Source: Sphingomonas sp. A2-49
Lineage (GTDB): Bacteria; Pseudomonadota; Alphaproteobacteria; Sphingomonadales; Sphingomonadaceae
Direction: 5' to 3'
Assembly (NCBI RefSeq): GCF_025548555.1
Contig: NZ_JAJLPA010000001.1
Span: 496,001 to 560,000, forward strand
DNA: 64,000 bases
The translations under genes were made by a program, and so were the position numbers. Below the pieces are notes generated by a model. The model made no database searches. It saw only the letters and a program-made list of their open reading frames with translations, and was not told where the DNA came from. This document shows positions 16,768-27,157 of this stretch, piece after piece; positions within the stretch are counted from its first letter, which is position 1, and each line of letters starts with the position of its first letter.

Positions 16768-17607
16768 TTACGCGTCGATCTGGCGCTCGGTTTCCGCGCC
16801 GGCACCCTCGACGTTGGTCGCCGCCTGCGCTTCCGGCTCGGCGGCCGGGGTCGGGACGGTCAGCGCTTCCTCGGCCGGCGCGACGTCCTGCGCACCCAGG
16901 TCGACGCCGCGGCGCGACTGCTGCTCCTGGTTGCCGCGGGTCGCGGCGATGGCGATCGCCTCGCAATACAGGCGGATGGCGCGGCTGGCGTCGTCGTTCG
17001 CGGGCACCGGGAAGGCGATGCCGTCCGGCGACACGTTCGAATCGAGGATCGCGACGACGGGGATGCCGAGCGTGTTGGCTTCCTTGATCGCCAGCTCTTC
17101 CTTGTTCGCGTCGATCACGAACATGACGTCGGGCACGCCGCCCATGTCGCGGATGCCGCCGAGGCTGAGTTCCAGCTTGTCCTTTTCACGGGTCAGCTGC
17201 AGCACTTCCTTCTTGGTCAGGCCGTGCGTGTCGCCCGACAGCTGCTCCTCGAGGCTCTTGAGGCGCTTGATCGAATTGCTGATCGTCTTCCAGTTGGTGA
17301 GCATGCCGCCCAGCCAGCGGTGGTTGACGAAATGCTGGCCCGAACGGCGCGCGGCATCGGCCACGGCGTCCTGCGCCTGGCGCTTGGTGCCGACGAACAG
17401 CACCTTGCCGCCGCCGGCGACCGACGACGAGACGAATTCGAGCGCGCGCGCGAACAGGGGAACGGTCTGCGACAGGTCCAGGATGTGAACGCCGTTGCGG
17501 TCGCCGAAGATGTAGGGCTTCATCTTCGGGTTCCAGCGATGCGTCTGGTGGCCGAAGTGCGCACCAGTCTCAATGAGCTGCTGCATGGTGACGACGGGAG
17601 CCGCCAT
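16768..17607 (-). CDS. rpsB: 30S ribosomal protein S2
   Basis: A 279-residue ribosomal protein with [30 protein letters not shown], and [14 protein letters not shown]. The C-terminus carries an extra tail rich in Ala, Glu and Pro from about residue 240. The ATG at 17607 has GGAAGGA 9 nt upstream; longer frames have no homology. A minus-strand promoter candidate lies at 17709-17737. Confidence 0.96.
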
Positions 17608-17708
17608 AGGATGAGTCCTTCCGGTTGAGCCTCTGGGAAGCGGATGACGTCGGCCATGCGGCCGGCGCACCGGGCTATGATGCTTCCCATGCGGGGTTGA
17701 GGGGCGCG

Positions 17709-17737
17709 CCATTAGACCCGGACGACGCGAAACGCAA
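17709..17737 (-). promoter_or_regulatory. Candidate promoter of rpsB-tsf
   Basis: On the minus strand, TTGCGT (17737-17732) and TAATGG (17714-17709) are separated by 17 bases. This would start transcription about 95 nt before the rpsB ATG. Supported only by consensus likeness. Confidence 0.4.
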
Positions 17738-17770
17738 GCCGTTCCGGCGGCAGGCCCGCCCCACCGACGG

Positions 17771-17785
17771 GAACGGACACGGAAC
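17771..17785 (+). promoter_or_regulatory. LexA-type operator 1
   Basis: GAAC-GGACACG-GAAC, the complement of GTTC-N7-GTTC, the alphaproteobacterial SOS box. It ends 5 nt upstream of the -35 element TTGACA. Confidence 0.65.
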
Positions 17786-17790
17786 ATCGC

Positions 17791-17819
17791 TTGACATCAG
17801 GAACATGGATGGAACATAC
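17791..17819 (+). promoter_or_regulatory. Candidate sigma-70 promoter between LexA boxes
   Basis: TTGACA at 17791-17796, a perfect -35 element, a 17-nt spacer, and ACATAC at 17814-17819 as -10. Operator 2 covers the spacer and touches the -10, the usual layout for LexA repression. Transcription would begin near 17826, about 147 nt before the ATG at 17973. Confidence 0.6.
17801..17815 (+). promoter_or_regulatory. LexA-type operator 2
   Basis: GAAC-ATGGATG-GAAC, an exact second copy of the SOS box, placed inside the promoter spacer and overlapping the first two bases of the -10 element. Confidence 0.7.
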
Positions 17820-17889
17820 GGCGTCCAGACAGTGGACGACGGTGTCGCCTTCCTCGCCAACGGCATTTCGGGCCGGAACGGGAAAAGTG

Positions 17890-17904
17890 GAACCTGTCGG
17901 GAAC
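17890..17904 (+). promoter_or_regulatory. LexA-type operator 3
   Basis: GAAC-CTGTCGG-GAAC, a third exact copy, about 70 nt downstream of the predicted transcription start. It may strengthen repression as a roadblock or serve a second promoter I cannot identify. Confidence 0.6.
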
Positions 17905-17931
17905 GCACTGACGGATCATTGGTTCAGCGAG

Positions 17932-17940
17932 TTATCCACA
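17932..17940 (+). promoter_or_regulatory. Perfect DnaA box
   Basis: TTATCCACA, the strict DnaA consensus, lies 32 nt before the start codon of the small membrane protein and just downstream of the third LexA box. Only one copy is seen, so this is not an origin; a regulatory role is inferred. Confidence 0.5.
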
Positions 17941-17972
17941 GGTTACTCGCGACCTGCGAGGGAGTTGGTTCG

Positions 17973-18221
17973 ATGATTGCAACGGTGGTTTCGGTGCTGG
18001 GTGTTGTGCTGTTCGGTGGAGCGTTCCTGTGTGCGGTCGGCGTGATCGCGGCGAGCATCGTCCCGCAATGGCAACGCATCGCCCGCCTCGCCTCGGGCCA
18101 GGTCGAAACCGCCTTCTCGCCGCTGTCGGAACTCGCCTCGGCCGAGCGCCGCATCGCCGTCAGGCGCTGGGCGTCGGCTCCGGTCCCCGCGGGCGTTCGC
18201 CGGTTGCGCGCAGTCGCTTGA
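17973..18221 (+). CDS. Small single-pass membrane protein under probable SOS control
   Basis: An 82-residue protein. Residues 5-29 form one strong membrane span (VVSVLGVVLFGGAFLCAVGV), followed by about 50 residues with many Arg ([16 protein letters not shown]). The start ATG has GAGGGAG 8 nt upstream. Its promoter region holds three LexA-type operators and a DnaA box. Its last 62 nt overlap the 3' end of pssA on the other strand. I do not recognise the family. Known SOS-induced small membrane proteins such as SidA, YneA and DivS block cell division, so a division checkpoint role is a reasonable guess, not a demonstrated one. Confidence 0.7.
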   Translation: MIATVVSVLGVVLFGGAFLCAVGVIAASIVPQWQRIARLASGQVETAFSPLSELASAERRIAVRRWASAPVPAGVRRLRAVA

Positions 18222-19014
18222 TCCGGGCGTAGCTCGCGACGCTGAACGGGATCGTGACTAGGTAACCGACGCAGATCGCGCTGAGCGTGTGCCAGGGCGC
18301 CGATACCAGTGCGGCGCCGAGGAAGACGACCAGAGCGATCGCCTCGAAGCGCACGGTCCGCCGCAGTTTTAGCGACGACCATGAGAAGGTGGCGACGCTC
18401 GATACCATCAGCAGCGCGATGAACGCGACCCATGGCGCGACCAGCCATGGCGAGGCGAAGACCGGCTGATCGGTCCAGAACCAGAAGTACATCGGCAGCA
18501 TGGCGAGTCCCGCACCGGCCGGGGCGGGCACGCCGGTCAGGAAGCCGGCGGATTTGTGCGGCTGATCGGTTTCGTCGATCTTCGCATTGAACCGGGCGAG
18601 GCGCAGGGCGCAGAAGACCGCGAGGATAAGGCTGCTGATCCAGCCGAGCCGCGGCAGCGCCGCCAGCGACCACAGATACAGGATCAATGCCGGCGCGACG
18701 CCGAACGAAATGGCGTCGGACAGCGAATCGAGCTCCGCGCCGAACCGGCTCTCGCCATGCAGCATCCGGGCGATGCGGCCGTCGAGGCCATCGAGAACAC
18801 CCGCGACCATAATCATCGCAACCGCGCTCTGCCAATCGCCGCCGATCGCGAAGCGCACGCCGCTGAGCCCCGAGCACAAAGCGAGCGCGGTGACCGCGTT
18901 CGGCGCGACCGCACGCAACGGCAGGCCGCGGGGCCGGCGTGGCAACCGGCGCCGGACGGGCTCGTCGCCGTCGAGCGAATCGTCGGTGGCGTCGCCGATG
19001 ATGCCGGGGATCAT
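18160..19014 (-). CDS. pssA: CDP-diacylglycerol-serine O-phosphatidyltransferase
   Basis: A 284-residue membrane enzyme that joins CDP-diacylglycerol and serine to phosphatidylserine. The CDP-alcohol phosphotransferase motif is complete: DGLDGRIAR, then GAELDSLSD about nine residues on. Around seven hydrophobic segments follow. The N-terminal 30 residues are Arg-rich. It overlaps psd by 4 nt (ATGA), so the two are translationally coupled and make phosphatidylethanolamine together. Its C-terminus overlaps the small membrane gene on the other strand. Confidence 0.95.
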
Positions 19015-27102: not shown

Positions 27103-27157
27103 TGTGCGACGTTAGGGCGCGACGTAGAACATAGCAAGAACCTTGGAGGGCGAATCG

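Follow-up and report, generated by a model that had tools for sequence, protein, structure and literature searches.

Clustered LexA-type operators beside rpsB in Sphingomonas precede a conserved, predicted small membrane-protein gene that may hold division after DNA damage

A 64,000-nucleotide stretch of the genome of Sphingomonas sp. A2-49 (hereafter the window; the genome comprises 3.93 Mb in 54 contigs) carries three LexA-type operators around one promoter, which is directed away from rpsB towards a small open reading frame (ORF) encoding a predicted single-helix membrane protein. The sequence itself establishes the motif, its identity with the LexA boxes of this genome and its conservation, together with the ORF and the architecture of its product, and it strongly supports LexA control of the ORF. 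The gene family behind these boxes appears to be unnamed. The features of the locus are the following, in window coordinates:

16768..17607, minus strand: rpsB, divergent neighbour (PF00318, E 9.8e-91)
17771..17785, plus strand: LexA-type operator, site 1 (GAACGGACACGGAAC), exact match 5' of the -35
17791..17796, plus strand: -35 hexamer TTGACA, from sequence
17801..17815, plus strand: core LexA-type operator, site 2 (GAACATGGATGGAAC), exact match between -35 and -10
17815..17820, plus strand: probable, weak -10 CATACG, 18-bp spacer
17890..17904, plus strand: LexA-type operator, site 3 (GAACCTGTCGGGAAC), exact match in the leader, least certain of the three
17960..17964, plus strand: probable ribosome-binding site GGGAG, from sequence, 8 nt before the ATG
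17973..18221, plus strand: small ORF, 82 aa, putative SOS target, ending in -RAVA
18160..19014, minus strand: CDP-alcohol phosphatidyltransferase gene (pssA-like), convergent (PF01066 and PF08009)

The original prediction had placed three GAAC-N7-GAAC repeats at 17771-17785, 17801-17815 and 17890-17904, and all matches lie exactly there. Its estimate of about one chance match per 64 kb was fair: shuffled sequences lead one to expect 1.5 matches, the window has 6, and a count of 6 was reached by 1 of 100 shuffles. The clustering had been called non-random, and the longer pattern GGAAC-N6-GGAAC agrees with this, since these three sites are its only matches in the window against 0.07 expected, and none of 100 shuffles reached three. 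Over the whole genome, GAACN7GAAC occurs 96 times compared to 22 for the reversed pattern, and GGAACN6GGAAC 14 times compared to 2. Positions 17771-17904 are the sole place in the genome where three GAACN7GAAC matches fall within 134 bp, and the sole other pair as close is found at lexA. An additional, unpaired GGAAC is present at 17875-17879. Elsewhere in the window, another exact match (GAACATAGCAAGAAC, 27127-27141) lies just 5' of an ORF that resembles, by eye, glyoxalase/VOC proteins.

In order to rank the sites, the inner seven bases of all 96 genome matches were scored with two weight matrices, one trained on lexA operators and the other on the relatives. Site 1 ranked 13 and 16, site 2 ranked 37 (lexA-trained) and 3 (relatives-trained), and site 3 ranked 60 and 70. 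A genome-wide comparison with the recA and lexA operators, proposed along with the original prediction, thus went in favour of sites 1 and 2, which fall within the range of known targets, and against site 3, which scores below it. The box of recA itself ranked 49 and 22, so that spacer scores part true from chance sites poorly.

The layout of the promoter could be followed through the genus. A search with rpsB gave 57 genomes with a match, from which 30 loci were compared: that of the window and 29 others, all of the same genus. The exact GAACN7GAAC pair located 4-6 nt behind TTGAC, with a small ORF further on, was found in 30 of 30, and the position of site 2 is therefore kept throughout. In all 30 loci the conserved TTGAC is directed away from rpsB. 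The placement of the -10 is inferred from the sequence and from a conserved ATA following the second GAAC, and in many relatives the hexamer is of the CATAAA or CATACA kind. The predicted arrangement, with TTGACA 5 nt past the end of site 1 and site 2 overlapping the likely -10, holds with this inferred placement. At least two exact sites are present in 12 of the 30 loci. In nine of these the extra site follows the core at a distance of 23-25 nt; in two (L012 and L030, hence 2 of the 29 other loci) it lies upstream of TTGAC, as site 1 does, and in one (L002) it is roughly at the place of site 3. Counterparts of sites 1 and 3 are thus few, and at the place of site 3 most relatives other than L002 have a single GGAAC or none. 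Just 5' of the small ORF, at 17927-17950, a perfect TTATCCACA, which we take to be DnaA-box-like, lies within an inverted repeat GCGAG...CTCGC, and L002, L004 and L006 also carry TTATCCACA at the corresponding position.

The same motif accompanies genes expected under LexA. Directly upstream of lexA in the genome of the window (PF01726, PF00717) we found GTTCN7GTTCN7GTTC, which amounts to two overlapping copies. GGAACAAGAGGGGAAC lies upstream of recA, GGAACGATTGGGGAAC at the start of a radA-like gene, and GAACATAAAGCGAAC and GAACATTACAAGAAC just upstream of two imuA-like genes at separate loci (L238, L239); the radA-like and imuA-like genes were named by eye, and the imuB neighbour of one imuA-like gene carries PF00817. 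The two boxed imuA-like loci are paralleled in Sphingopyxis granuli TFA, where anoxia is reported to induce lexA, recA, radA, dinG and two imuAB-dnaE2 operons jointly as an SOS block (PMC6472365). The lexA comparison was extended to 29 other genomes, one of which (L051) was left out as its start was not located: the motif is upstream of lexA in 26 of the remaining 28, among them every one of the 16 that belong to the same genus. Across 24 genomes from other families, TTGAC-N(3-7)-GAACN7GAAC gave 20 matches compared to 8 for the reversed control, so that about half of them may be due to chance; nine of the 20 precede ORFs resembling, by eye, uvrA (4), lexA (3) and ssb (2). The recurrence of one motif before all these genes indicates that it is the LexA box, and the reading of the repeats as LexA operators was borne out in this way. 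As a separate observation, a LexA-type box also stands, in the genome of the window, at the starts of two S24-peptidase (LexA/CI-like) genes (L038, L042) and of an ORF resembling them by eye (L245), which are possible second-tier regulators.

Taken together, these data make LexA binding and damage induction at this promoter very probable. The original prediction of an SOS-controlled transcript beside rpsB appears right on this evidence; it did not name the target, which would be the small ORF at 17973-18221. The number of operators suggests that control may be tight, as had been claimed. In Caulobacter, induction timing was not predicted by the properties of LexA boxes (PMC12700426).

The small ORF is conserved in the 30 genus loci and behaves as a real gene under purifying selection, as judged from dN below dS. 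In all 14 close pairs, dN stayed below dS across the first 58 columns of the alignment (0.19 compared to 1.5, 0.022 to 0.53 and 0 to 0.37 among others, the weakest case being 0.41 to 0.53); over the remaining, C-terminal columns this held for 12 of 14 pairs, with dN slightly above dS in the two others. All 24 aligned proteins share F14 and the final alanine. A hydrophobicity rule and AlphaFold2 both point to one N-terminal transmembrane helix, behind which lies an arginine-rich basic tail; the AlphaFold2 model has a long helix over residues 2-40 at pLDDT of at least 90 and weaker helices beyond (mean 81.9, pTM 0.44). The protein matched no Pfam family at E 0.001 and no NCBIfam family at its cut-off, and the best hit of a PDB sequence search (E 0.021) is not credible as a relative. 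A match of residues 62-80 to phage spanins (LysB/Rz; NCBIfam E 0.01, far under cut-off; PHROGs E 0.001) was set aside, as we read it as an effect of tail composition. Searches of Pfam, NCBIfam, PDB and PHROGs revealed no homology to known division inhibitors, and Rfam gave no family match at 17000-18400. The three named relatives that carry the small protein are Sphingomonas.

The arrangement extends well beyond the genus. We sampled 119 Sphingomonadaceae genomes and inspected the region upstream of rpsB: an exact site was found in 89, an ORF passing our rule in 95 and both in 87. The reversed pattern was found in 6, and one letter-shuffle per sequence yielded no ORF under the rule. The corresponding region was also inspected in 19 genomes outside the family, and there we found no site, no ORF and no combination of the two. 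The rule missed two of the 30 genus ORFs known to be present; among the 95 ORFs that passed, three (L225, L233, L234) seem not to resemble the others and lack a site, and among the 87 with site and ORF three are doubtful (L108, L156, L164). In one further genome (G010, locus L098) the site is present and the ORF was found by profile. Five family-like ORFs lack an exact site; in four of them a site with one mismatch closely follows a TTGAC. Leaving out the locus of the window, the exact site is linked to TTGAC in 76 of the 86 family loci having site and ORF. Neither site nor ORF was found at rpsB in 22 of the 119 genomes, one of these loci (L154) being cut by a contig end.

The promoter was then sought genome-wide in 24 genomes, namely 21 of those 22 plus G187, G088 and G232. 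The pattern occurred in 22 of the 24, at 30 places compared to 5 for the control, and in 19 of the 24 promoter and ORF were found together elsewhere than at rpsB: 17 with an ORF of the same build and two with a version of 38 or 35 aa. Under the looser rule applied here 18 relocated ORFs passed, of which one was dropped as unlike the others (L253) and one is doubtful (L256). Gene and operator could thus be located in 88 + 4 + 19, i.e. about 111, of the 119 family genomes. In the remaining eight we did not find it complete: G106 (ORF, no site), G094 (weak profile hit only), G203, G187, G088, G232, G192 (contig end) and G185 (searched at rpsB only). A protein profile search recovered the small protein in 16 of 147 genomes of the order, and comparison of the profile of the genus set with that of a hand-chosen set from other genera gave a match of 93% probability, which spans 42 columns in the helix region. 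The contrast between about 111 of 119 genomes by the promoter signature TTGAC-N(3-7)-GAAC-N7-GAAC with synteny and 16 of 147 by protein profile indicates that the protein changes fast while its control stays. Lengths in the family range from 35 to 111 aa, most members having 67-99 aa and a long tail. Five loci (L250, L254, L259, L267, L268) have very short versions of 35-58 aa behind the same promoter, which come near Caulobacter SidA (29 aa) in size.

Downstream, the 3' ends of the small ORF and of the pssA-like gene share 62 bp (18160-18221). A PssA-like end on the antisense strand was recognized, by pattern, in 46 of 87 family copies at rpsB and was missing in 41, so that this overlap is not a fixed feature. 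In three loci where the small gene lies away from rpsB (L256, L267, L268), the strand opposite the ORF end still reads, by eye, as pssA-like, suggesting that rpsB rather than the small ORF may have moved.

The composition of the protein gives an indication of its topology. None of 87 family proteins has a lysine or arginine before the helix core and 85 of 87 have a net positive tail, which places the tail in the cytoplasm by the positive-inside rule; membrane insertion in this orientation is likely. The chain ends in Ala-Ala in 76 of the 87 proteins, compared to about 4% expected with alanine at 20% of residues, and in 13 of 17 relocated copies; the protein of the window ends in -VA where its relatives usually have -AA. 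We rejected the idea that this ending is a by-product of the antisense pssA-like gene, since it is found in 39 of 46 copies with a PssA-like antisense end and in 37 of 41 without. The tmRNA tag of the strain is ANDNEALAIAA, with the ending -IAA. We propose from the resemblance of the -AA or -VA terminus to an ssrA-type degron that the protein is removed quickly, and rapid proteolysis seems to us somewhat favoured.

On this basis, we propose the following mechanism. LexA would occupy the promoter at about 17790-17820, probably aided by the two flanking sites, and keep the 82-aa ORF off. Upon DNA damage, activated RecA would trigger self-cleavage of LexA and an mRNA would start from about 17826. 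The single N-terminal helix would anchor the product in the inner membrane and leave the arginine-rich tail on the cytoplasmic side. The product would then block septation transiently, its helix most likely contacting a helix of a late divisome protein, for example FtsW. Once the damage is repaired, LexA would return and the protein would be quickly cleared. The arrest of division is put forward by analogy with known damage checkpoints, and for this step we consider the case evenly balanced. The whole chain, a LexA-repressed small membrane protein acting family-wide as a division inhibitor of the SidA, SosA and YneA kind with an ssrA-like degradation tail, is a tentative proposal to which we give a little less than even credence. 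A bolder version, less likely than not, is that it amounts to an undescribed, fast-evolving checkpoint of the whole family, in which a single-helix protein repressed by LexA inhibits the synthesis of the septal wall, with its tail inside and an ssrA-like degron at its C-terminus. If true, cytoplasmic AAA+ proteolysis would end the arrest, in place of the proteases outside the cell by which SosA and YneA are attacked.

Several other readings of the locus were weighed. Promoters recognized by the general-stress sigma factor EcfG have the consensus GGAAC-N16/17-CGTT, with GGAAC as the -35, and GGAAC is present in all three pairs. However, the full consensus fits 3 of the 30 genus promoters and is absent from that of the window, whereas the GAAC pair at its 11-bp phase combined with TTGAC occurs in 30 of 30 and the same pair is found at lexA and recA. 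We rejected EcfG on these counts, and repeats acting as its promoters without any role for LexA are scarcely tenable. It is also highly improbable that LexA mainly controls rpsB on the opposite strand, slowing ribosome synthesis during damage, with the small ORF as an incidental neighbour: the rpsB start is 164 nt from site 1, but the conserved TTGAC faces the other way and, in the 19 of 24 genomes mentioned above, promoter and small ORF stand together away from rpsB. Promoter direction and co-occurrence both follow the small ORF, and rpsB was discarded as the controlled gene.

The function of the product leaves more room for discussion. One hydrophobic helix with a cationic tail under LexA control would also suit an SOS-induced peptide that, like TisB and DinQ, is membrane-active. 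Such a peptide would perturb the inner membrane rather than the divisome, with slower growth or dormancy as the outcome, and some relatives measure only 35-58 aa. These toxins are however shorter and have antisense RNA antitoxins, while Rfam, which covers described families, gave no match around the gene, and most family members have the greater length and long tail noted above; we regard this possibility as improbable. A different damage-linked role for a LexA-controlled small membrane protein, either in phospholipid synthesis through the pssA-like gene or as a protease adaptor or substrate, is unlikely. The convergence and overlap of the two genes and the lack of any domain indicating division speak for it, but the PssA-like antisense end is missing in 41 of 87 copies. 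The division inhibitor remains our preferred reading. No title or abstract opening brought up by our searches of the open-access literature describes the gene, and the papers so found gave no description of a division hold in DNA-damaged sphingomonads. The gene is well delimited and lends itself to straightforward genetic testing.

The box itself is ordinary, being the direct repeat GTTC-N7-GTTC (GAAC-N7-GAAC) of alphaproteobacterial LexA, and comparison with known systems bears mainly on the protein. With a predicted single transmembrane helix under predicted LexA control, as judged from sequence and modelling, it would join the class of small SOS membrane proteins. In Caulobacter crescentus, SidA (29 aa) is a LexA-controlled small inner-membrane protein made after DNA damage, DidA (71 aa) is made after damage independently of SOS, and both act on FtsW/FtsN (PMC4211646). 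The likeness to SidA, drawn from its description, is that of a small, damage-linked, LexA-controlled inner-membrane protein in an alphaproteobacterium, as predicted here, whereas their lengths differ (29 aa compared to 82 aa, or 35-111 aa in the family). SosA of Staphylococcus aureus (77 aa) has one N-terminal transmembrane segment and a C-terminus linked to turnover, through which it is probably cleared by CtpA, and it keeps the same chromosomal place across staphylococci at 25-60% identity (PMC6851548). Size, a membrane segment (here predicted) and a fixed place across a genus are shared, as would be the tie between C-terminus and turnover, but sosA lies beside lexA and the C-terminal part of SosA is outside the cell, whereas here the tail is predicted inside and its end resembles an ssrA-type degron. 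As the predicted topology is reversed, the mode of action may differ from that of SosA. DinQ of Escherichia coli is an SOS-regulated toxic single-transmembrane peptide (PMC3567139), and DinQ and TisB resemble the small protein as SOS-regulated single-helix peptides. The helix of YneA from Bacillus subtilis binds TM7 of FtsW, and low-confidence models of SosA, ChiZ and SidA point to FtsW as well (PMC13396833). YneA is likewise an SOS-induced single-helix protein, SOS induction being deduced from sequence in our case, but YneA and ChiZ both carry an outside LysM domain, and in the small protein none was found (neither with Pfam at E 0.001 nor among weak hits at E 1). The small protein is thus distinct from SosA and YneA in its predicted topology and degron-like end, and from SidA in its length. 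It is a new example with which to examine whether small helices of unrelated sequence have converged on a single step of cell division.
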